A stretch of DNA of 64,000 bases, taken from contig NC_089459.1 of NCBI RefSeq assembly GCF_026210795.1, forward strand, positions 1,178,001-1,242,000, read 5' to 3'. The notes under the pieces were generated by a model. It ran no database searches. It was not told the origin of the DNA and saw only the letters and a list, made by a program, of their open reading frames with translations. Source of the DNA: Rhizophagus irregularis. Taxonomy: Eukaryota; Glomeromycota; Glomeromycetes; Glomerales; Glomeraceae. The translations under genes and the position numbers were made by a program. Positions 38,699-60,825 of the stretch are shown here, one piece after another (positions within the stretch are counted from its first letter, which is position 1; the number at the start of each line of letters is the position of its first letter).

Positions 38699-40640
38699 GA
38701 TGAAAAAAAAAAAACTCTTTCCCGAATACATTTTTTACGAAAATTTCTGCGTAATAATTTTTTTTAAAAAATAATCCCCTTTATTAAATTTTATTACATA
38801 AATATAAAAATGTCTATGGATAAGAGCCGAACACCAAACGAAGAAGCTTTAGACTTCGTTTCTATGTTTAACGAAATTTATTTTCAAACTTTTACACACA
38901 ATTTAAGTTCTTTTGTTACAGACGGTTTTCTTAAGGACTTATTTGAAAAAAACCCTTCAGTACCTAAGGATAAAGCCCAGATACTGATAGAGAGGTTTGG
39001 CGAGACAGCCAACCCTGCGAACTTCACTACACAAGCTCAAGCTACAAATATACAACCCACCACCCTTTCGCTAATATTTTCTATAGCGCTATATGCTGCG
39101 TCCAGGTCTTGGGATAATTTTTCTACCCAATTCTATGGCAAATTTGGCGATACTGGTGATGATGATGATGACGAAGATAGGAATCTCAGGATACTGATGA
39201 TTACCTAATGGATGCGTCACCTTTTTTGATCAAGATGTAGATGATCTAATACGCCAAGGATTCCAAAAACCACCAAATCCAGTACCTATCAAGCTTCCAT
39301 CAATGCCTGATATAGTAATGACCCCTGTTGATCAAACTGTGATACCCGAAAATTCCCGGAAGAAAGATAAACAAAAGGCGTGTGTTACAGATGATAAACA
39401 AGTCGTGTACCAATCAACAAAGGCAAAACCTGATGTGAAAACATCAGCCAAAAATTCCCATAAGGGAAAGAAATCATCCGAACCGGAGGTTACGCAGATA
39501 CTGACAGGATACGAAGCTGTCGGAGAGGAGCAAGAGCGAATCTGAGACATAATAGTTTACGATATCCCGTATACCTGGAACCTGCAGAAAATAATAGCAG
39601 AGTTAAAATTTTGAGGGAACGCTATTAAATGTTCCGTTAAACGGCAACATAAGTATCAGACTCTTCGAGTCAAAATAGCACTTTCTTCATTTGCCCTTCC
39701 CCAGTTTAATAAATATTGGATGACAGACCTGGGAGGTATACCCGTTAGATGGTTCCCTGCAAGTTGGACTTTACGAGAAAGAAAACAACGTGAAAAGTTT
39801 CAAGCCGTTATTCATGACATTCCGGAGGAAATGACAATGGCTGCCTTGTGGATGGACCGTAAACCATGTGAATTTTTAATGAGGTGCGGTGCTAGCTCAT
39901 TTAAAATTATCCAAACAAGCAAAGGAAGGAGGAAACTTGTGGCCTATTTCGAGAATTGGGAGACCACACTAAGGGCTTTAGATATGCCACAGTTTTTCGT
40001 ACCTGACGGTAAGGAGTTGAAATGGTGTCGACACTCCATCCCCACCTTGAAGAAAGCACAAAACAAACCGAAGGCTAAAAATACACCAAATCTGAAAATA
40101 TCAGGTAAGTCTGATAAGAATTTGGAAAGTAATCAGCCTAAGAAGAAGGATAAACCTACATCCTTGAAGAAAGTCCCGATAAATAATAACCAGGAGGAGA
40201 AACACCCAAAGAATTAGAAGAAGGCAAAGAATACCTCGAAGAAAAAGGGTGGTAATAAAGATAACAAGGCGGTTTTAGCAGAGATTTTAACTTTATTGCA
40301 GAAACTAGTTTAGCCTATGCTTTGATTAGCGGTTTTACGAATTTCAGAATTGTATTATTTTTTAGGATAGAATAAATTTATGTTTAGTACCACAACTTCT
40401 TGGAAAGGGGACTTGTCCTTTTTACTTTTTTTCCCCTCCTTATTTTTACCCAGTGTGTTTGCCTGGCCTTTTACCGGACGTGGTAGTGGTTTAGGTCTTT
40501 TTTTTCGAGAAGCTCGGGTTGGCTTCCAGCTCCTCTGGAAATTGATGGTAGGATTCAGTTGGGCTGTATTATATAGGTTTTGTTACTTATTAATCTTGCT
40601 CATGTTTATAATTCCCGCCGGCTTTACATAAAATAAAATA
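38699..40640 (+). mobile_element. Half-LINE (ORF1-only retroelement), most complete copy
   Basis: The order is leader (AAAACTCTTTCCCG...TTTTTTACGAAAAT), ORF1, 3' region (TTACCCAGTGTGTTTGCCTG) and an AATAAAATAAAT tail. It is flanked by ATGTGATGCACGTAA (38684-38698) and ATGTGATGCACATAA (40642-40656), a ~15-bp target duplication with one change. There is no endonuclease or reverse transcriptase. It resembles in layout the HAL1-type 'half-L1' of mammals (analogy only). Confidence 0.8.
38810..40216 (+). pseudogene. Half-LINE ORF1 protein: two RRM-like parts and Lys-rich tail
   Basis: The start is MSMDKSRTPNEEALDFVSMF at 38810. The N-terminal helical part (ATNIQPTTLSLIFSIALYAA) is followed by an acidic run GDDDDDEDR. 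A frameshift occurs near 39190. The second frame has VMTPVDQTVIPENSRKKDKQ, then an RRM-like segment (DIIVYDIPYTWNLQKII..QHKYQTLRVKIALSSF) and a second one (FQAVIHDIPEEMTMAALW..GRRKLVAYFENWETTLRALD), and then a Lys-rich tail to 40216. Two in-frame TGA codons (39543-39545 and 39612-39614) fit CGA and TGG codons changed by C:G to T:A. The protein would bind RNA. It is dead in this copy. Confidence 0.78.
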
Positions 40641-43865: not shown

Positions 43866-44129
43866 TTACTAGATCAGGCACTGATGAAAGCTTGATAGGT
43901 ACTGGATTTTGTGGTTTCTGGAATCCTTGGCGTATTAGATCATCTTCATCAAGCGTTAGCAAAGGTGACTCATCCATCAGATAATCATCAGTATTCCATA
44001 TGGGCCGATTTGGCTCACTTCAGTTATATCACCTGCGAAAATGATCAATGGTCGATCATTACCAGTTTAACTATTATACATATCACATTTGTCATTATTA
44101 CTTTACAGAAACCTTGAATTTTTAAACAA

Positions 44130-45290
44130 TACCGAATTGATATAATAATGATGTTAAATAAATATCGTGGCGATATCGATTTGCAAATGATATCATTATG
44201 ATATCGCAATGATATTATTTCAATATATCGAAATGATATCGTAAAGATATTTGTTTGAAAAAATATCAGATTGATATCATTTCGATATTGTTATAACAAC
44301 AATGAATTTTTTGAAAAATGGGAAGTAAATACGATATTAATATGATATCGTTCCAACATTAATTCAATATCAATATGATATCGTAAAGATATCACTTTAT
44401 AATTATCTAATCGACATCATAACGATATTGACGAAACATCAAATCGATATCACTTTACTAAAAATGGCCAATTTTTTGAAATGATTTTGTAATAATTTTG
44501 AAATACTACATAAATACATTTAATACATCAAAATGGTTTTATTATATTTTTGTTATTATTTTGTAATTATATTGTATCTAGGTCTATAAAAATAACTCAT
44601 AATAATATCACAATAATTTTTTAATGTTTTTGTTATTATTTTATTATTATAATATAATTAACTTTGATATTATTTTAATATTTTAATCTCAAAAATACCT
44701 CAAATATATCTTGATATATTTTAAAAATTTTACAAAATAATTGCACAATTGTTTTGAAAGCCATTGTATCTAGGTCTATAAAAATATTTCAAAAAATTGG
44801 CCATTTTTAGTAAAGCATTTCGATATTGTTATAACAATAATGAAAAATAGAAAGTAAATACGATATTAATATGATATCGTTCTAACATTAATCCAATATC
44901 AATATGATATCGTAAAGATATCACTTTATAATTATCTAATCGACATCATAACGATATTGACGAAACATCAAATCGATATCATTTCGATATTGTTATAACA
45001 ACAATGAAAAATAGAAAGTAAATACGATATTAATATGATATCGTTCTAACATTAATTCAATATCAATATGATATCGTAAAGATATCACTTTATAATTATC
45101 TAATCGATATTGACAAATAATGAAACGATATCATTTTGATATTGTTATAACAATAATGATTTTTTTTTAATAAATGCAATATCAATATAATATTATTTTA
45201 ATATTAATTCAGTATCAAAATAATATCAAAATGATATTATCTATAAAAATATCAAATCAATCAAATATCGTTAAATTCAATTTTATAATA
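44130..45290. repeat. GATATC-rich array, left side
   Basis: The words GATATC, CGATATT and AATGATATC recur every 15-40 bases in units such as CAATATCAATATGATATCGT AAAGATATCAC, with three longer near-repeats (~44330, ~44870, ~45030). A 363-bp MITE interrupts it. A similar array is at the other end of the Tnp2 element. Confidence 0.75.
44453..44815. mobile_element. 363-bp MITE, copy in the left array
   Basis: The ends are CTTTACTAAAAATGGCCAAT and the exact complement, with CA on each side. It is the same element and length as 55078-55440, in reverse orientation. Confidence 0.75.
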
Positions 45291-45299
45291 TTTTAATAA

Positions 45300-46930
45300 T
45301 TTGTAATCTAATTTAAAAGTTAATTTCAATAGATTTAAGTTACCGGTTATTTATTACAATAACAATTTTAATTACAGATAAAGTATACATTAGTTTAAAT
45401 ATTATATAACAGATAAAAAAAATATCAATAAATCTATAATAAACTAATTCAATAAATTAGAATTATGAGTTAAATTGGTGATGTAAGTCAAAACATTATG
45501 CCTTAATACTCCAGAATCATAACTCATCAACCCAAAGTTGAGGATTAACCGGGTACCTTGCTTTAGATTCAGCGACACTGCCCAAGTTGGATGGGGTGTC
45601 ACAGGTACGCTTTAAGAAGACTCGCTACGACTCTATTGCAAAAAGGATAAGTATATTCGAAAACACCAGACATAAATTCACCTCAGAAGTTTGGCGGGAA
45701 ACCCCTATAAACAACTGCAGTTTCATCATTACCAAAATCATTGAACTTAGGGATACAATGAAAAAGTTCATGAGAATGACGGCTTTAAAAAAAAAATACA
45801 AATATATTCTCAACTTTGACAATGCACCCTTATTCTTTGGCCTGGAATTCTCATATGACTAAATTATTGTTGTTTGTAATTTGATCCATTGAATCCACTA
45901 TAAATTGCCAGGCAAAGCGAACTTTTATTAGACAACCATAGCTTCATCAACAAACGTTGCAATGTGTTTGGACGGATGACATCCTGTTTAATAAATTTTA
46001 AATGGGCAAACGTGGACTTAAAACCCATTAGAAGATAGGCTGCAAGAAGTGCAAAGCAACCTACCTAACCCACGAGTGGGTCTAAGGGTTAGGGAATAAA
46101 TTAACGCCCAAACACACACAAGTTGGTATGGAGTTAAAGTCTTACAAACTAAAAATTATTTTTGCCACTTAATTCTCCAATAATCAATGTTATAAAAAAG
46201 TTACTTACGACTTAAGCCTACTTAATTATATATAAAATGACACTTCGAACAGACAGAGCTCATGATATATGAGAATATCCCATCATGCCTATTTTAACCC
46301 TTGATTAAAGGATTTTTGTTGCGTTATCAAACTGATTATATAAGTTTTACGCCTATATAACATAAGCTTATGCCCATATAATCAATCAAACAAGTCCGCC
46401 TTTTCCTATAACACACTATGCACGACAGCAAACGGTATAGGAGGAAGATTCTAATTTTCAGAAAGAAAGTTTTTTTTTTTCAAAAAAAAAAACGTACAAA
46501 TAAATAGCGGTTAAATAAAATGGTGGTTGAATTGACTTTTTAGGAATTAATAGGTCTTATACGTGATCATTTAATATACGCGATCATTTAATTACGCGAT
46601 CATTTAATCAGACAATTTTATAAATTTGGTATTATACGAACTTGATCAACCAATAATTGTTTAGGTAATGCACGGATGAGTTCTTTATAGGTGGATATTA
46701 TCAAAATAGAGCCAAATTAACTTTACACAGTTTATATAGATAATTGATTATTTAATGGTAATAACACAACAAGTTAAAGAAATTCAAATATGATTGAATC
46801 TCAACAGATATTCAAAACTTTTAAAACTTTTTGTGATTTTTCGATTGAAGCTAATTATTATTAAAGTCTATACCATTAAAAGAATATAATTAAATAAACT
46901 AAAAAGAAATACTCAATAAAACTCAATTTT
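45300..46930. other. No recognised gene; one short frame
   Basis: The open frame 45587-45862 (+, 91 codons) lacks recognisable motifs and is probably not a gene, although the nearby sequence is less AT-rich than average. Repeated ACGCGATCATTTAATNA words occur at ~46560-46610. Confidence 0.4.
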
Positions 46931-47179
46931 ATTTTTTTATTAAAATTTTATAAAATCATTTATTAATGATTCTTCTTCGTCATATAATTTTATAAGAATG
47001 CACCTAAATCTATAATTTAATTTTATTAATATATTATTATCAAAGGCGTGATGTGCGAAATAAATAAAATAACTTACTTGTTTTAGGGTATTTACTATAT
47101 CACTTCCACTTCGGGAAGGGATAATTATATTTTTAGTCATGGTATCCAACTCCTTTATACCAGGTAAGTTTTTACCGTC

Positions 47180-48274
47180 CTAAGAAACGCGGACGGCTTC
47201 CTTAACAAACTCAACTAACGTATCCATGCCTTTATTATTTGTCAATTCCAAAATATTGACAGCTGCGAGTTGACGGTTTAGAAGTTTCTGCACTACGTTT
47301 TCGTCAACGTAATCTTTAATTTCTTTTTGGGAAAGATTTCCAGTCGTACCCCTATAATTAATTAATTAATAATTATACAAATAGCACTATTTTGTTGACT
47401 ATAAAACAATAAAATAAACAAATACCTGCTCTTTCTGATTTCTTTGTATTCCCTCACTAAATTTAGAATATTTTGGTTGAATTTATTCCTGAAGTCTGTT
47501 AAAGACTTACGAGTTTTATCTAGATATCCTCTAGCTTCGCTAGTGTAAATTTTAAACCGAAAAATTTTCACAACCAAATTGTCGAGTGCTTCACTACTCG
47601 GATTCCTCACTCGTAAAAATAAGCACTTTACCGACTCATCCCATAGTCGTATTTTATCCTAAAATATTGAGATACGTTATTTGAGATTTAGACATAATAA
47701 ATATTATCATATTGTATTAATACTAACTTCAGTATTCTTTGAACTAACAACATAAGATGATTCGTTCATTTCATTCGCTAATCGTAAGATTTCTGGATTT
47801 TTTACAAGCCAGTTACATATGTCTAATTTGGTACAAAACTGAAACGGATCTGGAATTGTTTTAGCCGCGCCTAACTTGTCGTTATCATCATCATCATCTT
47901 CTTCTTCTTCCTCCTCTTCTTCTTCACTTTTATCCCTTACATCCTCTTCTACTATTACTTTCTTTTCACTTTCGTTATGTTTTTGCCTGGTATTCATATC
48001 TGTATGTAATATATTATTTCAATTATTTCAATTAAAAATTAATAGAATAATATTAAAGAGCTAAAGCCTATATAAATTAATATTTACCTAATAATAATTG
48101 ATTAGTTTCTTCAATATTTATTTCTCTCCTCTTTCTCGGTAAGGTCCTTTGATTTTTTTTCGATCCTATTATACATATTTCGGTTATTATTCTTACATAT
48201 AAGCAAAACTTTTACGGAAGAGTTACATATATACCTGTTTCGATTTCTATTTCTTTATTATTATGTTTAGTCAT
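47180..48274 (-). CDS. Uncharacterised acidic-run protein, five exons, possibly nonsense-truncated
   Basis: The exons are 48274-48235, 48165-48088, 47999-47728, 47658-47426 and 47351-47180, with GT..AG junctions and agreeing phases, giving 264 residues. It starts MTKHNNKEIEIETGSKKNQR with a basic, NLS-like RTLPRKRREI, then a run of nine Glu and five Asp (~residues 60-80), KLDICNWLVKNPEILRLANE and a helical, charged second half (LTDFRNKFNQNILNLVREYK). No family was recognised. The reading frame continues unbroken after the TAG (47180-47182) for 34 more codons (DGKNLPGIKELDTMTKNIII...) up to a strong GTAAGT donor at 47077. So the TAG may be a recent CAG to TAG mutation and the original protein longer. 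It is carried inside the Tnp2 element. Confidence 0.55.
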
Positions 48275-49585
48275 AATATCGTAATGAGAGAACAAGAGAA
48301 AATGAGAGAACGAGAAAAAAAGTGAAGTAAACTTCTCGCAAGATTGTCATGATATAAATGAGATCTCCTTGATCAAAAGAGCGAGATTGTCGATATAACC
48401 CCTTGATCAAATATATGATATAAAACGAGGTTGTCACGATATAAATGAGATCTTGGTTACTGTAATTTTAATTATAGAACGTAATTGGAAAGTATGCAGG
48501 ATCTCAATATCGTTGTGTACCGTATAAATTGAGGGGAATGCGGGATCAGTTGAAAATGTTGAAAGATGGAAAAAAACTATGATTTCTAGAGGATCGGAAA
48601 TTAAATTTAGTTTATATAAATAAATAATTACAATATCGAATTTCATTCAATGACATTTTTTTTTATATGGAAGATTACCTCAAATCGATTTTACGGTTCC
48701 AAATTTTATTATATTTTCAGGCTATACGTGGAATGAGAAGAAAAATAATGGAAAGGGGTGAGAAGAAAAATGATCGGTAGAAGAAAAAAGGAGTGAGAAG
48801 AAATTAATGGAATATTACGTTTTGAATTTCCATTTTTATGTGTGATACGATGACATGCAAGAAAAATTAAATTTTTAAATAATTATACTCTTGACGATAA
48901 AATATAAAATATGATCGGAAAAAAACCAATTAATAAAAAAGATCGATTATTTTTAAACTGAACCATGTGATGATCCTATCTAACTAAGCCATATCTAAGC
49001 CTTATTTAGTGTAAGCCCCTGGATTGATTACATAATAGAATTTTTTAAATAGATAGATGGGATCTACAGTAGTCAACTTACAACGATATTTGAAAAATAC
49101 CGATATATTGATATTTTATACTGTAGGAAAGAGTTTTAATACATATTGGTGTAATCAAATATCGGTATATAAAGTATCAACTATACAAATAATGCAAGTC
49201 ATGTGCAACTAATCATTTGTCTAATTGTTCGGTAATATTCTAAAACGGAGTAAATTAAGATCGAATTAAGTTCCTTACAGTGTAGATTAAGGTTAGCTTA
49301 AAATTCAGTATAATTGTAATATATCATCGCAAAGTGTAATATGAAATATAATCAAGGAAGGACATGCGTGGTTTAAAATATTACATTTTCTTTTACCTTA
49401 AATATAATTTGCAGATTACTTTCGTCTTCTTTATTGCTTTTTTTAATGTATAATTATAAATAACATTTTTAACTCACTTTTTATTAATAGAATTTGTTTA
49501 TTTATTTTTATTTATATATATTAATTAACGCCGTGATGCAGTATTACTGTAACTATATTTTTAAAATAAATTAATAAATCAAAAA
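48275..49585. other. Spacer inside the Tnp2 element, no gene seen
   Basis: Upstream of the acidic gene, blocks such as GATATAAATGAGATCT repeat near 48350-48450. A possible small pogo-like relic lies at 49066-49190 (CAGTAGTCAACTTACAACGA with TACCGATAT words at both sides), not well enough bounded to call. Confidence 0.4.
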
Positions 49586-49968
49586 ATTATGTGTGTATTC
49601 AATGTTAAATAAATTAATTAAAGATGATTGCATTAGAACTAAAAAATTTAGACAAGATCATAAAAATAAACTCAAAGAAATCAAAAAAAAATATGTGTGT
49701 ATTCAATGTTAAATAAATTAATTAAAGATGATTGCATTAGAACTAGACAAGATCGTAAAAATAAACTCAAAGAAATCAAAAAAAATTATGTGTGTATTCA
49801 ATGTTAAATAAATTAATTAAGGATGATTGCATTAGAACTAAAAAATTTAGACAAGATCGTAAAAATAAACTCAAAGAAATCAAAAAATATTTTTACGATC
49901 TTGTCTAAATTTTTTAGTTCTAATGCAATTCTTAATTAATTTATTTAACATTGAATACACACATAATT
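49586..49968. repeat. Three direct ~100-bp repeats followed by one inverted copy
   Basis: The unit ATTCAATGTTAAATAAATTA...GATTGCATTAGAACT...GACAAGATC..TAAAAATAAACTCAAAG occurs at about 49586, 49690 and 49790, then once in reverse complement at 49887-49968. The inverted copy can pair with any of the three and form a long hairpin. Confidence 0.8.
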
Positions 49969-50052
49969 AAACTCAAAGAAATCATAATAAATTTATTATA
50001 AATATAGAGCCTTTTCTTGACATTTTCCCTATCAAACTAATAATATTTAATA

Positions 50053-50424
50053 ATGGCAGCATTAAACTTAAACGCAAATTTTCCAGTATACATTCAATGG
50101 CCCGATGACGCTGCTTTGACCTTAATTCAGCGTCATCGGGCCTATCAGCCCTTATTCACCACAATGAGGTTACATGACCAAAAACAATTATGGCGTGGAA
50201 TTGCTCGTGATATACGAAACAACCACACATTCAGGCCAACTAGAAAACAATGCAGAGAGAAGTGGAATGCACTAAAGGCAGGGTACGAGAATCTAGAGAG
50301 GCTAATCAATAGAAATCCTGATGATTACCCTACTCGTACCCCGTCTTTGCACGATGAGAGGTTCCACCAAGAACTCTCAGACGAGTTCTGGAGAGTTGAG
50401 CGTAAGTATTTATTATTTAACTGA
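50053..50424 (+). CDS. Myb/SANT-like DNA-binding protein (exon 1 sure, 3' end unsure)
   Basis: Exon 1 encodes about 118 residues with a Myb/SANT-like (trihelix/MADF-like) domain: WPDDAALTLIQRHRAYQPLF, QKQLWRGIARDIRNNHTF, RPTRKQCREKWNALKAGYEN. The spaced tryptophans and the basic helix KQCREKWNALK are the hallmark. A GTAAGT donor at 50403 joins a second exon (from ~50476) reading SSRRNRVDRRTYEYRERR and then either GALILDFIVTD or, one frame over, RALSFSISSSPTS. Both run into a 23-bp minisatellite, so the C-terminus is uncertain. Myb/SANT genes often accompany DNA transposons as accessory proteins. It lies 0.7 kb upstream of the Tnp2 transposase in the same element and orientation. Confidence 0.6.
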   Translation: MAALNLNANFPVYIQWPDDAALTLIQRHRAYQPLFTTMRLHDQKQLWRGIARDIRNNHTFRPTRKQCREKWNALKAGYENLERLINRNPDDYPTRTPSLHDERFHQELSDEFWRVERKYLLFN

Positions 50425-50605
50425 TTTTTTCATTAATTCATTGCATTTATATTAATAATTGCTTTGTTTTAAGCATTAGTCCAGTCCTCCCGGAGAAATA
50501 GGGTGGATCGTAGGACATACGAGTATAGAGAGCGCAGGTGTGCGGGCGCTCTCATTCTCGATTTCATCGTCACCGACGTCATTAATATTTTTATTTCATT
50601 TTATT

Positions 50606-50765
50606 TTTTATTTTATTTTATTATTATGTTTTATTTTATTTTATTATTATGTTTTATTTTATTTTATTATTATGTTTTATTTTATTTTATTATTATGTTT
50701 TATTTTATTTTATTATTATGTTATATTTTATTTTATTATTATGTTTTATTTTATTTTATTATATA
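50606..50765 (+). repeat. 23-bp minisatellite, ~6-7 copies
   Basis: The unit is TTTTATTTTATTATTATG plus five further T/A bases. The ATTATG words recur at exact 23-base spacing (G at 50628, 50651, 50674, 50697, 50720, 50743). Because 23 is not divisible by three, all frames stay open and give a meaningless FYFIIM-type hydrophobic translation. Confidence 0.88.
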
Positions 50766-51173
50766 CTTATTATTTTATTCAATAAATGACATTATTCGAT
50801 AATATTATTTGTCATACCAATTGTTATTAACCATATACAGTATAATTGACCCTAAATTTTGTGTATCCATTAATAGCCAAATCGGCATTAATTTAACCGA
50901 AGTGATTACTTAATTGGCAATTGCATTTTTTTTTTTTTTTTTTGCCGACACGCTTAATAAATTTAAAGTTCTAATTGAATTAATAAAATTCTAGTTAAAT
51001 TTAAATTAATTTAAATTGTAATTGTTATAAAGATGAGGAGACGATATAGTCACGCCAAACCAATAAAACCAATTTGAATTCGAAATCGGTTTTCTTACAG
51101 CAATCTTGGTGAGACAACTACTTCCGGTGAGAGGCGTTCACCTGTACGTTCACCTGATAATGATGACGATAAC

Positions 51174-54100
51174 ATGGACTTTCAGTATAATCACGAAGAT
51201 AATGATTTAAGTTTTCAGGACATTAATGATGATGATAATGAATATGGATCAATTGGTCCTCAGTATTACAATGATGAGATGGAAGATGATGATCAATCAT
51301 TTGATAATGAAGAGGAAGAAGAAATTGACAATGAATACAATAGTGAAGAGGAAGAGGAAAATGACAATGAATACAATAGGGATGAGGAGGAAGATGATGA
51401 TAATGGAGACAATAATGAAGAGGAGGAAGAGGAAGGTAATAATGAAGAGGAAGAGGAACGTAACAATGACGAAGAGGAACGTAATGATAACGAAGAGGAA
51501 GAAATACATCAAATTGTTGAAGCTTTGGATGAAGACAAGATACCATCCTGCAATGGTGAATTTGCACCGTACTTTGATAATTATACAACTACGGCACTAT
51601 TTTGTTGGCTTCAGAAGCATAATGTTTCTACAAAAGCATATGAAGACCTTGTTGATATCATTCACAATCCTCAATTCGAACCTACTCATGTAGTAAAAAA
51701 TATCCGTAGATTCCAATCATGGAGAAAACGTCTTCCTCTCCTACCAATAATAACAAAGCCTATTCAAATTTACCAAAAAAAACTCCGTCAACTTCGTGAG
51801 ATTCGAAGCTTTCATATCAACTCTCAATTAGTGATATTATATTGCGTGTTCTCAACAATCCAATGCTGATGAAGCATATGTATTTCGGACACGGTGTTAA
51901 TTCTGAAACAAAGTCAGAATATTGGCATGGAACTTTATGGGGAGAATCACCACTTTTTGGACAACATGAAATAATAATATCAGAAGGTAATAGGACAATA
52001 TACTTTGGTATAATTATGATTTGTTAACATTAAAATATTTATTTTAATAAAATAGTAATATATCAATCTGGTGATTTTGTCTACTATCATGATAATGGTC
52101 TTAAAAAACTTTGAAGGTTGAGAGCAATTTTAAAAGATGAAAATGGAAACTATGAGTTACGAGTTCAACTAATTTTAAATTATGATGATTTACCTGGAAA
52201 TATAAAAGGGCTATCAAGACGACGTCGTTCTCTAACTGAGGAAGTATGGTTTCAGGATGAACCATTTATAATCATAATTACCTCTCAAATTTTAGAGAAA
52301 GTAACTATAATGATGACGTATAAACACCAAATTATTCCAGAAGGTTCATTACGAATTACTGAAATAATTTATAAATGTAATGACCGTTGGCACGTTCGTG
52401 ATGCAAAGCTTTCATACCAACATCCTTCAGATTACATTTCTGTCAGAAATCCACCGTCGTCTATGCCAGTTTATAAGCTGTTTTTAGATCTTTACTATGA
52501 TGATTTTGGTACATTTGGAAATGTATACCATTCCTTAGGTGGCGTCTATATACAGTTTGGTAACATGCCAACGCATCAGAGAAAGCTAATCAAGAACCAT
52601 TTTGTTCTTGGATTTATTCCTTTTGGTGGAAATTTTAACGAGTTTATGGTACCATTTGTTTCAGAAATAAAAAAATTTGAGAAAGGAAAGATTATGACTG
52701 TTCAAGGACAAGATGCATGGGTTATTGCTGGGTTGGGCCTTGTTACAGCAGATCTACCTCAAGGTAATGATATGGCAGGAGTACTGAGGTATTTTTCAAT
52801 TTAATTATTAATCTTAATAATATATTTTCGTAACAACTATTAAAATGATTTAAATTTAAAAATCAATTTAGACATAATGCAAATAAAGGTTGCCGTACTT
52901 GTACAACTAAAAAGGAATCATTGAGTACCTATAATCAGGATAGTGTGACAACATTACGTTATCATCATATCACAGATGAAGAAATTTCAAAAATTTCTCA
53001 AGAATCTGTAAGTTCAAAAAGAGGACAACTTTGTACAGAATATGGTTTAAGATCATTACCTAGTATTTTGGATAAATTAAAACGTGAGAGACATTTACAA
53101 ATGCCACAGGATATTTATCATGCCACCGCAGGAAAGATTGGGCGGCTACTAAAACTAACCTGTGAATTATTTTCACAAGAAGGAGAGGATGATTTTGTTA
53201 AAATTTGGAAAAATTTTGAAATTCCAAAAAAGTGGTCTCGTCTACCTAATCCAATTAGTCATTACAATAGCTTTATGATGTCTGATCTTCTTAGACTAGC
53301 TATGATTATGCCATTTTTATTAAATCGATTTTTAAAGGAATCAAGCCTCAAAAATAATGAAGCAGCCACTATTCGACAAAGGATTGATGTGGCTCGAATT
53401 AGCTTAGTGCTAAAAGCTATTATATCTTGTTGGGTACAAGTTGCAAAGACTATGAAAGCAGTTTTTAATAAGGAATTTACGTTAGATAGCTATGAGGAAT
53501 TACAGCTATGTCTTAAAGAAGAGTTTTTAATTCTTCCAAAGGTATAATTATAAATTTGAAATTCAGAACATGGAATAATTCAATAATTAACAATATTTTG
53601 TTTTTTTATAGGTTTTTGCAAGTTTTGTTAACTTACCAAATATACATATTAATATGCATCTTTTGATGCATGCTAAAACTTTTGGTACACTTGTCAACTC
53701 TCAGGTTGGTATAAAAGAGATGGTTCATCGTATCTTTAAAGGAATGGTACCAAAAACTAATTGCAAAACTATAGACCTGGATTTATTAAAACGTTACAAT
53801 ACTTTATTTGCAATTCGACATTTAGCAGATGGAGGTATAGATCCAAGATTAAATAGATCTTGTACTGGGTTCACAAGTTCAAATTTTGATCAATTATTTT
53901 CAAATTGGTATGTTACAGAAGATAAATATTTAATTGAGAAACAAATTCAAAATGATGACATAAAAGGTAAGATAGCAAAATATTATAGTACTTCATATTT
54001 ATTTTTTCACATATGCATAATATTTACTAATCTTTTAATTTAGTTACTTCACCAGTAAATTTTATTTCCAATATTTCCTTAAAAAAAAGAATATCAAAGC

Positions 54101-54615
54101 AGGAACATGATAAACTTCTCTTGACTTTGCATAATTTTAAAATTGAATTGTTTTTATCTTATGTGGATATGAAGTTTGAGGCGGCACTTATAAATTCTTC
54201 AATTAGTTGGTACAAATTAGCATCATATACAATTGAAGAAAAAAATGGTATTCTTTCAAAAGTTCACCTACATCTCAGTGATTTTATCACAATTTATGAA
54301 GAAGATCATGAAGAATCTTATGCAATAATCAAAGGTATCTTTCAACATAAGGGTAATAATAACAAATATTATGCATTTATTGTTGTAGATTGGTTTGAAG
54401 ATACTATGGTTGAACATTCAGTATTAAAATGTCCACTTTACCGTCTTCAAGCAACAGGAGATAAATGGAGACGTATTTTTCCAATTACTGTAATAGATAA
54501 TGTTCAAAAAGTACACTTTATTCATAATTGTAATTCAGAAAGGTGCCAACTACCAAATCATGATACTACAAATAGAATTTGGATAAAAAATAATTTTTAT
54601 TTTACAGCCATATAA
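51174..54615 (+). pseudogene. Tnp2/CMC (Plavaka-like) transposase, decayed
   Basis: The exon path is 51174-51986, 52056-52788, 52872-53541, 53612-53966 and 54044-54615, with consistent phases. A Glu/Asp/Asn-rich N-terminus (to ~residue 120) precedes LNNPMLMKHMYFGHGVNSET, WHGTLWGESPLFGQHEI, the core GNVYHSLGGVYIQFGNMPTH, FVLGFIPFGGNFNEFM, GLGLVTADLPQGNDMAGVLR and HNANKGCRTC, the arrangement seen in Tnp2-type transposases. The C-terminal half is helical (LMHAKTFGTLVNSQVGIKEM). It is inactive: one A is missing in the A-run at ~51780 (frameshift), with in-frame TGA at 51797-51799 and 52112-52114. An additional 5' exon may exist, since the frame is open back to an acceptor at ~51101. It probably once mobilised the surrounding 13-kb element. 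Confidence 0.75.
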
Positions 54616-55077
54616 TTATATTAATTATATAAATATAATAAAATAATTATTTAATTTGTATCGTATAAAATTTTGGTTAAAATTAACCAATAAAATCATA
54701 TGCATGATGTAATAATAAATTAAAATTAACCAATTAAAATCACTTTAATTACATGCATGTGATATCTAAAAATAGCTAAAATTCGCGTTTATTAATGAGA
54801 TTTTTTTTGTTTATTTTCAAAAATACACTTTTCTCTTGTCTTTTATATTAACACTTTACGGTATTTTGTTCGTCTCTTCTTTTCTCTTTTTAAAGTATAC
54901 TTTAATTATCTTTTTACAATATTAACAATACTTTGGGACACTTTAGTTTATATATTCAACATAGTAAAACACCCACATATGAAAAGCAAGAATAAAAAAA
55001 GAATAAAGAAAAGAAAATGTACCCACCACTCACATACGAAAGAAAAGAATAAAAGAAAGGAAAAATGTACCCACTTA
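54616..55077. other. Spacer with repeated host-like words
   Basis: AT-rich. The phrases AAAATTAACCAATTAAAATCA (54690-54750) and ACCCACCACTCACATACGAAA / AAGAATAAAAGAAAGG (54970-55070, again at ~56110) recur. No gene. Confidence 0.4.
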
Positions 55078-55440
55078 CTTTACTAAAAATGGCCAATTTT
55101 TTGAAATATTTTTATAGACCTAAATACAATGGCTTTCAAAACAATTGTGCAATTATTTTGTAAAATTTTTAAAATATATCAAGATATATTTAAGGTATTT
55201 TTGAGATTAAAATATTAAAATAATATCAAAGTTAATTATATTATAATAATAAAATAATAACAAAAATATTAAAAAATTATTGTGATATTATTTTGAGTTA
55301 TTTTTATAGACCTAGATACAATACAATTACAAAATAATAGCAAAAATATAATAAAAACATTTTGATGTATTAAATGTATTTTTGTAGTATTTTAAAATTA
55401 TTACAAAATCATTTCAAAAAATTGGCCATTTTTAGTAAAG
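55078..55440. mobile_element. 363-bp MITE, second copy
   Basis: The ends are CTTTACTAAAAATGGCCAAT and complement, flanked by TA on both sides. It has exactly the same length as the copy at 44453-44815 but is inverted relative to it. Confidence 0.75.
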
Positions 55441-55572
55441 TAACCACATACAAAAGAGAAAAAAGCCATTTTTTAAATAAATAGTGGAGCTGTTAAGCAA
55501 GGTATGAAAATAGGATATACGCGTATTTTTCATATTTTTTTTACAATATGTTGTGGTTTGAGTATTTTTTTG

Positions 55573-55745
55573 TTAGATTGTGGTATAAATGCGAATATAT
55601 TTTTCAACGGCCATGTATCTATTGCTTGTTAAATATATTTGCAATTTCTTTGTTAGACTGTGGTATTACAATATGAAGTGTGAATATATTTTTCAATGGC
55701 CATGTATCTATTGCTTGTTAAATATATTGGCAATTTCTTTTGTAA
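55573..55745 (+). repeat. Tandem duplication of ~85 bp
   Basis: TGTGGTAT..GCGAATATATTTTTCAACGG CCATGTATCTATTGCTTGTT is followed directly by a near-identical second copy (from ~55664). The frame through it (55589-55777) is therefore a duplication product, not a gene. Confidence 0.7.
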
Positions 55746-56229
55746 TATTTGCTTTAGCCTGGAAGAAAATGTTGTAAAATAGGGCTGGATATTTATGGCA
55801 TTTTCCGCCTTCCAATTACTTTGTCCGGGGGTAGCCTGACAATTTGTCGTTATCCGTCAGTCGTAGCAACCAGCATTTTTTTACAATATTATGATTTTAA
55901 GAAACAAAACACTCAAAAAAATTTAAAAAAAGAACTAACTTAAAAATATTATCATTTTTATTATTCTTTACAAAATCCCGGAATTACCTGCTCTAACTAT
56001 TATCCCAAGGTTATGTATTAAATTTTAAATATATTTTACAAAGAATACATTTTATTAATCATGATTGTTTTTTTTATATATATATATATTTTTTAAAATT
56101 GAAAATGACGTATTCATCCACTCACATACGAAAAGAAAAGAATAAAAAAGAGAAGAAAAAGGAAGAAAAGAAACGTACTCCACTCACCCATAATAATTCA
56201 CTAATAAAAAATTATTATTATTAATGTAT

Positions 56230-57060
56230 AATAAATAATAAACATATATTACAATAAAAATATTTTTGTGATGTTAATTCAGTGTTGATATAATATCATT
56301 ACGATGTAGTTACGATATTAAATAAATGTAAAACATTTTTTGTAATATTAATTTGATATTAATATGATATTATTATGATGTAGTTACGATATCAAATAAA
56401 ATTGTAATATTAATTCAATGTTAATACGACATCACTACGATGTGGCTACGATATCAAACAGATGTAAAATATTTTTGCAATATTAATTCGATATTAATAT
56501 GATATCACTACGATGTGGTTACGATATCAAATAAAATGTCAAATATTTTGTAATATTAATTCAATGTTAATACGACATCACTACGATGTGGTTACGATAT
56601 CAAATAGATGTAAAATATTTTTGCAATATTAATTCGATGTTAATATGATATCACTACGATGTGGTTACGATATCAAATAAAATGTCAAATATTTTGTAAT
56701 ATTAATTCAATGTTAATACAATATCACTACGACATGGTTACGATATCAAATAAAATGTCAAATATTTTGTAATATTAATTCAATATTAATATGACATTAC
56801 TACGATGTGGTTACGATATCAAATAAATGTCAAATATTTTTGTAATATTAATTCAATGTTAATATGACATCACTACGATGTGGTTACGTGATAATATTTA
56901 CATCGCATAATGATCGCAGCGATATCGCAGAGATATCGAACTAATCAATATCGAATAAATACAGTTACGACTAACTTAACGATGTCGAATCTATTTTTTA
57001 TCAAAATATCGTAATGATATCGTAATGATATCATTGCGATATCTAATCAATATCGATTGT
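56230..57060. repeat. GATATC / ATTACGATGTGGTTACG array, right side
   Basis: About nine units of ~95 bp run from 56280 to 56890, each containing ATTAATTCAATGTTAATA, then a (C/G)A(T/C)ATCACTACGATGTGGTT and ACGATATCAAATAAA. After 56890 the array changes to GATATCGTAATGATATCATT-type words like those of the left array. Confidence 0.8.
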
Positions 57061-57149
57061 AAACTTCAAGTTTCAGCAAAGTATTGTTTACCAATCACAA
57101 CTAAATAAAATTCACGCTGCGGCACAATTACGCGTTTACTGTATCCAAC

Positions 57150-57703
57150 ATGTCCTTTAAATGTTACCTTTGCCAAAAAACCTTTTCTTCCCGAAAACAA
57201 CTTTTAACTCATGAAAGAACTAAGCATAAAAACAATAAAACTATACCTCATCTCCATTCACTCCACCAGCCCACTTTTGAGCAGCTTGTGTCTTACCAAG
57301 ATGCGTTTATAGTCTTAATTTAAAAAACGTCTTGGTTTCAATAGACATTCTGTAGGATCTAAACGACTCTCAATAAGTGTCTTTCCTAAGAATGTATTTG
57401 TTTATTTATTTCAAAATGAACCTTCTTTTAGGTATAATTCAGTACTGCGAAAATATCATTATACATTTAAAGGTGAGGCGGGAGAAGGTAGATTAAAGCA
57501 AATTTTAAACTATGAATACTGGAATTGCCGACAAGATCCCAAAACAAAAACAACGGGATATGTACTATTTGTGAATAGTGAGGAAATTTATGAAGTTTCT
57601 TTCAGTTGGGCACAGAATGAATTGGTTGAAAACAACCGAATCTTTCAGTGTGGGACAGTTATCTGCACATTTATAACGGATTCAGGAGAGTTTATTAATG
57701 GGT
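57150..57703 (+). pseudogene. C2H2 zinc-finger protein gene of the outer element, one frameshift
   Basis: It starts at ATG 57150 with MSFKCYLCQKTFSSRKQLLT followed by HERTKH, a clear C2H2 zinc finger (C-x2-C-x12-H-x4-H). The first frame ends at a TAA (57321). One extra T in ATTTAAAAAA shifts the frame, and the continuation KKRLGFNRHSVGSKRLS is open to 57703. That continuation contains FVYLFQNEPSFRYNSVLRKY, HYTFKGEAGEGRLKQILNYE and CTFITDSGEFING. The last codon is followed by GTAAGG, so the TAA may instead be a splice donor. Function unknown: in the outer element it may be an accessory DNA-binding protein. It faces the large gene tail to tail, 199 bp apart, and starts ~70 bp outside the right end of the Tnp2 element. 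Confidence 0.65.
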
Positions 57704-57901
57704 AAGGTTTGGAATTTCACATACAAATCTTTTATAATTTTGAAGAATTAATAGTTTGATTTTTTTCTTTATTAGAAATGAAGTAACAAATGAAAATCAA
57801 TAAATAATTTATAGATATTTTAATAGAATTTTTTTTGGATTTCAACAGAATTCCAGAAATAAATAATTTATAAATTAGTAGTTTTGTGTGTAAAACATAA
57901 T

Positions 57902-60512
57902 TTAGATTGTATTTTCACCATTATAAATATTAATGTTTCTACATGTTATTTCATTAGGAATATTATTAATCAAATAAAAGATTTGACGATTTTCAAATAC
58001 TAGTATATCATAAACAACAGGAAGTTTTTTTTTACCACCTCCCATAGTTGTTCCTCCAAAAAACAATCTAACCTAATAAGTAATAAATGAATAAAATATT
58101 TATGCAAAATTTTATATCATACCTGATCGTGATTTTTTTTTTCAACACTACTTGTTGAAAATAATCTAAGCGAAAGTCCTTTTTCTTTTAATCGACGCAT
58201 AAAATAAGGGACATGCATTGTAAGCATATGCATGTAAGGTGTGACATCATCCTTCCTATAAAGTCCCGGAATTGCTGTTGCAGAATTCATTTGGCCTATA
58301 GTAGGTCGACAGAAAGTCCTTACCCAATTTTTTGCATCTTCCTCAAATTTTAAAATTTCTGCTTCAGTGTGAGATGGTTTTCTTAAAACCTCATACAACT
58401 GATAAAATTTACGCCACAAATTTTCAATATCCACTCCACGTACTCCAGGTATAAATTCACTTACAGGAAAATATTGTAGCATTTTTTTTTTTTCTGGTCC
58501 CATAAGAGATGTCCAATTCCAAGTACCTTGAGCAGAACTACGATAAAACTCAAAATGAATATTAATGTTATTCATTTTTTTTTCAATTTTTTCTTTAAAA
58601 TTTCGTTCAAAATCATTTTTCTTAAATAGATCTCTAAATAGACATTCCATCAATATATCAGATATCCGTAATAAGATATGAAGCTCATCAGGAATATAAT
58701 TAAGTAAATCAATCACAGGAAACAAAGATGCCCTTTTTTCCCTAATTAATGTAATTATAATGATTACTTACATATTATTATTTTTTACCAATTAACAATT
58801 TAGAAAAAAATTTTAACCTTTAGTATTTCCAGTAGGCATCCAAAAAAGATCCATATTATGCCGGGATTTAGCATCACATTCACAGAATAGATAAAAATAT
58901 TCAGAATTAGGTGCATTTAGACCTAAAATAATATAGGTAAACTTCCAATCACCAGAAAAATAAAATTCAACAGGCCAGTGAATGCCATCATCATCAATTA
59001 TTCCATTCTCCTTTAAATCAGCCAACTGTAAGGCAAATATTTTGCCAACTTTATCCAATGTCTCATATTTTTCTTTACCTATGTAAAGACATATACTAAA
59101 ACAGTAATGAATTTTATTTTATTTTTTATTAAAATTACAATTAAATTAATTTAACAACACAAAAAATATACCTATATTGATGGTTTGGTTTAAGTACGTC
59201 ATCCTTTTCATTTAATAAACAAAAAGTAACTATTACATGATTTTGTTTTCTCCTAACATTACGACCATCTCCACCAAGTTTTATATGAAGAATATCTCCT
59301 GGAATTATTACAGGATTTTCTCTTCCTTTCCAAACAGGTATTAATATTTTAAGTAAAGTTGAAAGTGAACAATAAGCCCCATTTCCTACTTCATAATTAT
59401 TTACTAAAGTATCACTAGCACGTTTATCAGAATTATTATCACCATTAAATTGATCAATATCTTCTATATTAAAAATTTCCACATGTATCTGAGTATTTAT
59501 TAATTTATTTATCTTATTTCAGCGATCAGCAACTAAATACTCACGAAAAAGTGATGGCACAACTGCTGCTAAATGCCGGTATCCATCACGACTTAAAAGT
59601 GCTTCATCACATACACGTACAATAGCATCAAGTTTTGTTTGAATTGTCATAGAATTCGAATTTTGAAGTTGATGCAAACTTGATTCTCTTTGCAATCGAA
59701 TCCAATATGCTGTAAATATAAAATTGGCTCTCCAGATAAATTTGTCAGCTTATGTTTAACAATCAATTCATCAACTGCTTTTTGCACATCCCTTCCGAAA
59801 CTGTTAAATCTTTTATTTTGCTGTGAACGGGAAGTGATATCTTCAAGTGGTCTTTTTCAGTTATTAACTTCTGTTGTAACAGCAGTAACAGGTCGAAACC
59901 CAATTTGTAAACGAGCATGATATAGTGGCTCAATATCAAATCCAAATAACCGAGGCCCAGATGATTTAGTTGATGATTTTAAGTTAATTTTCTATTAAAT
60001 ATAATATTAAAATTAATTATATGTTATTAAAATTTATCTAATATAAATATGAGTTAAATACCTGTAAAAATGTATTAACAACAGCTGTTGAAGATTGGGT
60101 ACTACTAACACTCCACTCTGCATGACCGATCTTCCAATTAATTGTATAGCATACCTTTGAAACTGAAATTTATTTAGTTTTGCATATAAGACTTCTTTCA
60201 GAAAACTTTGTTTCAACTATATAATCGTCAGGTATTGGATATTGAGACGCGTTGTTTTTAGATTTTTGTGTCAGTTTTGGTGTGGAAGGATAGGTTCCCA
60301 GAGAAATAATATTGTAATATGAAATATATAATCGTTCATTTGATTGAAAATGTGCTTCAATTTTAGAACTTCTTGGATAATCATGTATGAAAACACGATT
60401 AGAAAATGTAGCTATTGATAAAAGGGTGTTATTGAACGTTCCTACATTAAAAAAAATTATTGAAAAAAAAATTACTTTCAGCAATGGGAACGCGTATGGT
60501 TGTTCCAGCCAT
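57902..60512 (-). pseudogene. Large element-encoded protein, possible RAG1/Transib-like DDE transposase
   Basis: Seven or more exons start at MAGTTIRVPIAE (60512-60476) and continue at 60441-60062, from 59991 to ~59141, ~59058-58813, 58725-58117 and ~58100-57902. The conserved parts in order are LSRDGYRHLAAVVPSLFREY, GDILHIKLGGDGRNVRRKQN, WPVEFYFSGDWKFTYIILGL, YLFCECDAKSRHNMDLFW, IPDELHILLRISDILMECLF, WNWTSLMGPEKKKMLQYFP, TPYMHMLTMHVPYFMRRLKE and LFSTSSVEKKNHDQV. Candidate catalytic residues are D at ~59268 (GGDGRN), D at ~58688 (PDELH) and E at ~58142 (SSVEKKNH). This order recalls RAG1/Transib-type transposases (a judgement from memory, not a search). In-frame stops at 60170-60172, 59857-59859 and 59519-59521 and a one-base loss near 59720 make it a pseudogene here. 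Confidence 0.6.
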
Positions 60513-60825
60513 TTTTATTGTTTTAAAGCAAAAAAGGTTCGTTAAGTGAGTATAACAAATTTTTAATATACTACTTACCGTTTTCCAAAAAAAATAGTTC
60601 TTTCCAAATAAAACCAATTACAGACCAATTCCTGACAGGTTTCAAAGTTGCGAGAAACTAGTTTCGAGATACCAACGATTGGTTTAAATATGAAATCGTC
60701 ATGTATGTCATTGTGCATAATCTGTTATTATCACTTTTTTCAGGTTATTTTGATCAGCATGTTGATCATAATTCATATTTATCACTAAAAATTAATTAGT
60801 GATAAGAGACAAATCAGCCCATATG

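Follow-up and report, generated by a model that had tools for sequence, protein, structure and literature searches.

The signature residues D-D-CxxC-H-HxxxxH-E follow one another in the same order in RAG1, Transib and CACTA/EnSpm transposases. Transib-type termini begin with CAC, as does the heptamer of the recombination signal sequence. The signature is common to the whole CMCT clade, which comprises EnSpm/CACTA, Mirage, Chapaev, Transib, Plavaka, ESTA and Lanisha (Kojima 2025, PMC12730594), and the part of that paper drawn on here gives target-site duplications (TSDs) of 2–5 bp as the known range of the clade, not as a criterion. Twenty Transib-like fungal proteins and, in an alga, RAGL transposons with 5-bp TSDs appear in the accessible part of another account (PMC9435367). 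Here we analyze 64,000 nucleotides of the mycorrhizal fungus Rhizophagus irregularis (assembly GCF_026210795.1, contig NC_089459.1, positions 1,178,001 to 1,242,000; hereafter, the window), in which the original prediction, made from the letters alone, had suspected a RAG1/Transib-like transposase and a convergent zinc-finger partner gene within a transposon. The picture that emerged is very probably that of a transposon family with the CMCT signature, CATAT ends, convergent genes for a transposase and a C2H2 protein and a duplication of a single base, the copy in the window being inactive.

Positions 43997–60825 of the window are one copy of a high-copy DNA-transposon family, split by an insert of about 13 kb. 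Such a nested insert had been proposed in the original prediction and was confirmed by comparison with the gene-bearing copy L008, which matches positions 43994–44100 at 99% and continues beyond the insert (Table 1). The terminal inverted repeat (TIR) pair of the window copy (CATATGGGCYGATTTG) is by itself not beyond chance, as two matches to the pattern with at most three mismatches were found in the window and 0.84 are expected. In the genome that was searched (146.7 Mb, 32 contigs) the exact 16-base ends occur 129 + 131 times (260 in total), and a reversed control pattern 0 + 0 times. When the exon reaching from the PDELH motif to the catalytic glutamate was used as a genome query, 152 transposase matches were obtained, some loci giving several. 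Copies were taken from the best of these matches and from TIR pairs at the first 100 of the listed places, which is not a random sample. Ten of the 12 places fetched (L001–L009 and L012) bear both genes between ends that read CATATGGGC on either side; nine are 3.7–4.1 kb long and L012 measures 4.8 kb, in line with the intact element of about 3.8 kb that had been foreseen. L010 and L011 were considered as intact copies without the large gene and rejected as such, because they are elements of about 0.93 kb with a nested insert and no matching genes; the insert in L010 bears a fragment that looks, by eye, like a Tc1/mariner-type DDE transposase.

The large gene and the convergent zinc-finger gene were found in all 11 close copies (the ten mentioned above and the window copy). 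Six distant relatives (L013–L018), 37–43% identical over the exon, have long open transposase frames, and in each of them the zinc-finger gene occupies the same convergent place, frame-split in L013 and L014. The compact two-gene arrangement first read from the window copy thus holds for every one of the 17 gene-bearing copies that were read over their full or nearly full length, and it has been kept across subfamilies even though their transposases share only 31–40% identity in the 19-row alignment A2 described below. The ends of five of the six distant relatives begin with CATAT; for L017 just one end was found. Altogether, CATAT...ATATG ends are present in 34 copies, most of which were picked or located by this very motif, so that only the pairing of the ends and their flanks count as independent observations; the ends of the family read CATATGGGC or CATATSSGC. 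Eleven of 16 short copies with the same ends that were fetched (L036–L051) have lengths of 0.9–1.2 kb. The family has moved recently, because nearly identical copies occupy different sites (L002/L003 99.4%, L005/L006 99.0% and L013/L014 99.3% identity). As a measure of selection, ratios of nonsynonymous to synonymous substitution (dN/dS) were about 0.2 in pairs with little saturation, namely 0.176 for the partner gene (L009/L001), 0.172 for the transposase (L013/L016) and 0.231 for an exon (L001/window copy). The remaining pairs gave 0.09 to 0.87, mostly near synonymous saturation, and four of 28 partner pairs yielded no value as their synonymous sites were saturated. Conserved-peptide scans of IMG/VR and GTDB genomes found no relatives.

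Insertion of the element duplicates a single target base. The base adjoining the ends is identical on both sides in 24 of 29 copies, with 10.9 expected from composition (binomial P 8.5e-07), and in five of five distant subfamily copies (29 of 34 in total; L017 was excluded as its second end was not found). Other offsets agree in at most 15 of the 29 copies, and a TSD of 2 bp or more was rejected because agreement rises well above expectation only at the adjoining base. The window copy disrupts a multi-copy host gene family, of which 40 near-copies are among the genome matches listed. When the flanks of the element were joined with one C and compared with these 40 paralogues, 32 showed no net length difference, eight were shorter by a net 1–3 bases and none was longer. 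Among the empty sites of this locus that were aligned (12 fetched and one within the window), a 1-bp model was best in 13 of 13, albeit by one score point only in the four that read CC. Two paralogous empty sites of L018 likewise fit 1 bp best (2/2, total 15/15), and the reading frame interrupted there stays open at the 1-bp junction only. Insertion between two identical bases without any duplication, i.e., a target preference with a 0-bp TSD, would equally yield identical flanking bases; we regard it as highly improbable because the empty paralogues of both loci fit one base and not two, the four cases with a lead of one point included. A literature search for 1-bp TSDs, within one open library and with the phrases tried, found nothing, and one for TIRs and TSDs in R. 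irregularis yielded only papers that seemed unrelated, going by their entries.

For the large protein, an alignment of five proteins (A1) and one of 19 rows (A2) were prepared, and residues are numbered according to the relative P0002. Invariant in both are GDGRN, F-S-x-D-W-K-F, C-x2-C and D-x-L-H, and nearly invariant are H672 and E-x-K-N-H. His667 is present in 17 of the 19 rows of A2, the exceptions being one truncated protein and one with a tyrosine. The signature residues D364, D444, C463, C466, H519, H667, H672 and E694 follow the order common to RAG1, Transib and CACTA/EnSpm. The motifs originally pointed out in the window protein (GGDGRN, FSGDWKF, PDELH, HVPYFM and SSVEKKNH) are all present. 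The FCEC that had been taken for the zinc pair had to be abandoned, as the conserved pair is F-C-x-x-C, the first cysteine of which lies 19 residues past the DWKF aspartate and is replaced by a tyrosine in the window copy. Both cysteines occur in 30 of the 31 loci with the motif; 36 loci were scanned with a strict DWKF pattern, and no match resulted for L004, L009, L010, L011 and L012 (L004 reads LSSDWKF and has both cysteines). The aspartate of PDELH was also considered as the second catalytic residue and rejected, because the profile comparisons with PDB sequences and those by hhalign with RAG1 and with CACTA proteins align that of DWKF instead. We infer that the large protein is a transposase with an RNase-H fold in which D364, D444 and E694 are responsible for catalysis. 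As a side observation, Pfam DUF1280 (PF06918), which we take to be a domain of nematode proteins, has five matches in the genome at E up to 10, all within this transposase family (L075:1321-1428, L076:545-679, L077:923-1030, L078:855-962 and L035:1493-1600). They cover the HYT-LYPG-E-Y segment at E 1.4–2.3, and four of the five show the same peptide, leaving two independent cases; DUF1280 is possibly a remote animal relative of the family.

The partner gene is split over two frames in the window copy, whereas L004, L006 and L009 each carry it in one uninterrupted frame. According to Pfam it encodes one C2H2 finger (zf-C2H2_jaz, E 6.5e-06), and for its tail of about 150 residues Pfam gave matches below the cut-off alone (best DUF7953, E 0.0028, in two of ten members). 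All of the 60 matches listed, out of 179 in PDB, fall into the finger region. The partner alignment (A3) took in five of the six distant relatives, L014 being left out. With a C2H2 finger and no Kelch or PHD match in Pfam, a RAG2-like partner was rejected; of the likeness to ProtoRAG that had been suggested, the two convergent genes stand and the nature of the second gene does not. En/Spm has a second, DNA-binding product, TnpA. By analogy, we think that the partner binds the ends of the element. In a mechanism consistent with these features, the transposase would cut at the CATAT ends by means of D364, D444 and E694, the cut ends would be joined to target strands one nucleotide apart, and filling of the gaps would lead to the 1-bp duplication. 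The C2H2 protein, bound to the terminal DNA, would be needed for synapsis or regulate it, as TnpA does for En/Spm, and the short same-ended copies are presumably mobilized in trans.

How close is the enzyme to RAG1? In mouse RAG1 the corresponding residues are D600, D708, C727, C730, H795, H937, H942 and E962 (counted on the PDB sequence). An hhalign comparison with A2 covers 262 columns at 21% identity (P 0.0011, score 35.7) and pairs, in colinear order, D708 with D444, C727 with C463, C730 with C466, H795 with H519, H937 with H667 and H942 with H672; the pairs D600/D364 and E962/E694 follow from order and spacing only. None of 300 shuffled mouse RAG1 sequences reached this score (best 28.4), the reversed protein scored 16.3, and ten other long open reading frames of the window, used as a control, gave 15.4–21.1 (an eleventh on the list being the transposase exon). 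The distance from the second aspartate to the first cysteine is 19 in both RAG1 and P0002 and that between the two histidines is 5 in both, whereas H942 and E962 are 20 residues apart as compared to 22 for H672 and E694, and the aspartates are separated by 108 residues in RAG1 and by 80 in this family. When two HMMER profiles were run against 177,635 distinct PDB sequences, the profile search contemplated in the original prediction, zebrafish RAG1 was the top match of both (E 0.054 and 0.083, not significant alone). RAG1 entries were the sole three matches up to E 10 in the search with E 0.054, and amphioxus RAG1L came seventh (E 1) in the other. For scale, mouse RAG1 as a query reaches Transib (6pqn) at E 0.006 only. 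The profiles align the DWKF aspartate with D708 and the CxxC with C727/C730, and the two histidines in a second stretch below threshold.

A similar relationship was found with CACTA proteins from the same genome (L056–L058 and L079–L082, retrieved with PF02992). L056 scored 39.5 against the A2 profile over 110 columns, with both aspartates and a CxxC aligned, a value reached by none of 60 shuffles (best 30.0) and compared with 19.3 for the reversed sequence. A profile of six CACTA proteins (L057 excluded) scored 46.9 (P 0.00015, 142 columns, a comparison made without a shuffle control) and aligned DWKF, CxxC and DxLH, whereas the same profile gave 12.8 and no alignment with RAG1. We considered and rejected the idea that the 19-residue spacing between the aspartate and the cysteine is common to all CACTA proteins, as five of the seven have 17 residues there; L056 does have a CxxC at +19, yet the one that hhalign aligns is the following CxxC, at +22. 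The signature and the 5′-CA..TG-3′ termini are those of the CMCT clade, and the TSD falls outside its range of 2 to 5 bp. The enzyme appears to be remotely akin to RAG1 as well as to CACTA transposases, and the family is most suitably placed in the CMCT clade as a lineage that seems not to have been described, ESTA having been compared by description only. Beyond that, we lean towards a new superfamily-level lineage between CACTA and RAG1, with a single-base stagger and a C2H2 partner whose convergent orientation has persisted all through its radiation, i.e., an independent two-component machine of a RAG-like kind.

A number of results weigh against the reading as a separate CMCT lineage. The E-values of RAG1 in PDB are 0.054 and 0.083, and unrelated chains reach 0.52 in the second search. 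The stretch aligned by hhalign spans neither D600 nor E962. Pfam and NCBIfam scans of the family proteins gave no match to a transposase family, RAG1 appearing at E 0.26 in one of ten members, and a genome search with PF12940 found nothing, a search that matched no control genome either. Six of the seven single CACTA proteins score 18.2–26.6, and the longest open reading frames of four Plavaka loci 13.9–21.4, both within the range of the shuffles. Finally, five of the 29 copies do not have matching flanking bases (the gene-less L010 and L011, and L040, L045 and L048 of 0.9–1.8 kb). The family might alternatively be an aberrant subfamily of a CMCT lineage that already has a name (EnSpm/CACTA, Plavaka, ESTA or Lanisha), possibly with an entry in Repbase or in an R. 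irregularis library of transposable elements (TEs). The six-protein CACTA profile, the highest score among the comparators tried, speaks for this possibility, as do the ends of PlavakaB (CATCA..TGATG), the similarity to RAG1 and very short TSD (TA) that ESTA likewise exhibits (PMC12730594, in the part used) and a 2024 survey of R. irregularis TEs, the available portion of which reports Transib and CMC families by hidden Markov models (PMC11075540). CACTA and Plavaka families are indeed abundant in the genome (155 matches to PF02992, i.e., Transposase_21, and 123 to PF18759), but the Pfam scans never matched either domain to proteins of this family, single CACTA proteins mostly stay at background, and the published TSD range does not extend to 1 bp. 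We treat membership of a named lineage as a less likely alternative.

The other explanation to be weighed is that of the original prediction, namely that the family genuinely belongs with RAG1 and Transib and that a mycorrhizal fungus houses a RAG-like transposon; the zinc-finger gene would then substitute for RAG2. The motif order on which it was built is real, and the order of the catalytic core, the spacing of 19, the CxxC, the DxLH and the HxxxxH all align with RAG1; the order is, however, shared by the entire CMCT clade. The sequences do not tie the family to the RAG/Transib branch in particular, because a profile built from CACTA proteins of this genome aligns as well, and they are compatible with such a kinship. 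The rank of RAG1 and RAG1L in PDB, the long colinear alignment, a spacing like that of RAG1 as opposed to the 17 residues prevailing in CACTA proteins, and the single match to PF12940, which lies over the stretch D708–C730, are in its favor, and it was given more weight because six of the seven single CACTA proteins do not score above background and the spacing differs in most of them. The traits by which RAG and Transib elements are otherwise recognized were not found: the TSD is 1 bp and not 5 bp, the ends read CATAT and the partner lacks Kelch and PHD matches. We consider this explanation improbable and retain the separate CMCT lineage as the preferred one.

The window copy itself can hardly be active, judging from its nested insert, a stop codon that lies in frame within the transposase (upstream of the first catalytic Asp codon, in the first alignable exon), the tyrosine in place of a zinc cysteine and the split partner gene. 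The exons of its transposase were delimited by spliced alignment to P0002 and by exon-wise matches to other copies (Table 1). The nested insert has GATATC-rich subterminal repeats and short plus-strand open reading frames at about 51.1–54.6 kb. A Plavaka transposase (L054, G000:C31:1246823-1250572) is located just beyond the window.

Table 1. Features of the transposon copy and its surroundings; positions refer to the window.
Feature	Position	Strand	Basis or remark
Left TIR with subterminal DNA as far as the nested insert	43997..44100	+	CATATGGGCCGATTTG at 43997-44012, exact
Nested insertion of about 13 kb (different mobile element)	44101..57081		Gap between two L008 homology blocks
Right part of outer element with both genes	57082..60825		98% match to L008
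Right TIR	60810..60825	-	CATATGGGCTGATTTG
Left 1-bp TSD copy (C)	43996		Single base supported by paralogous empty sites
Right 1-bp TSD copy (C)	60826		Single base supported by paralogous empty sites
Empty paralogue from the host gene family that the element disrupts	39090..39287	-	Within the window (G000:C31:1217090-1217287)
Transposase	57959..59665	-	Alignable exons 59665-59172, 59095-58818, 58766-58123, 58072-57959; decayed upstream exons to 60512
Predicted first catalytic Asp codon (GGDGRN)	59267..59269	-	Invariant column D364 of A2; aligned to STDGY Asp of L056
Predicted second catalytic Asp codon (FSGDWKF)	58948..58950	-	RAG1 D708 equivalent by alignment
Zinc CxxC position	58882..58893	-	Tyr for first Cys (58891-58893); second Cys 58882-58884
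Conserved His of PDELH	58678..58680	-	RAG1 H795 equivalent
Predicted catalytic Glu codon (SSVEKKNH)	58141..58143	-	Paired with RAG1 E962 from order and spacing alone
Partner gene	57150..57705	+	ATG at 57150; C2H2 zinc finger, then conserved domain of about 150 residues of unknown family

The family adds a lineage alignable with CACTA as well as with RAG1, whereas the CACTA profile and RAG1 fail to align with each other, and its constant partner gene means that the acquisition of, and dependence on, a second subunit in CMCT transposases is open to study in organisms other than animals. With a duplication of 1 bp, the two strand transfers would be separated by one nucleotide, which is an unusual geometry within the CMCT clade. 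For the repeats of arbuscular mycorrhizal fungi, two-thirds of which are unclassified according to the part of the R. irregularis survey drawn on here (PMC11075540), CATAT ends, a 1-bp TSD and a transposase together with a C2H2 gene offer a diagnostic combination. Compared with the systems described so far, the family shares with ProtoRAG the two convergent genes between TIRs and differs in the second gene, which is RAG2-like with Kelch and PHD in ProtoRAG/RAGL; it also differs from RAG1/Transib in its TSD (1 instead of 5 bp) and in its termini, CATAT instead of the Transib type. With EnSpm/CACTA it has in common the alignment around the second aspartate, the CxxC and the DxxH, the first aspartate (in L056) and CA...TG termini, whereas the available text on fungal EnSpm elements gives CAC..GTG termini and a 3-bp TSD (PMC12730594). 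Plavaka belongs to the same clade and is present in the same genome, PlavakaB having similar ends, but has TSDs of 2–3 bp. ESTA, an EnSpm-like group of rust fungi, resembles the family as a fungal CMCT lineage whose similarity to RAG1 shows in HHpred and whose TSD is likewise very short; as far as the part of its description used here goes, that TSD is TA and TET/JBP genes are present in the three families that the text describes (PMC12730594), whereas the family from R. irregularis, compared with it by description only, duplicates any single base.

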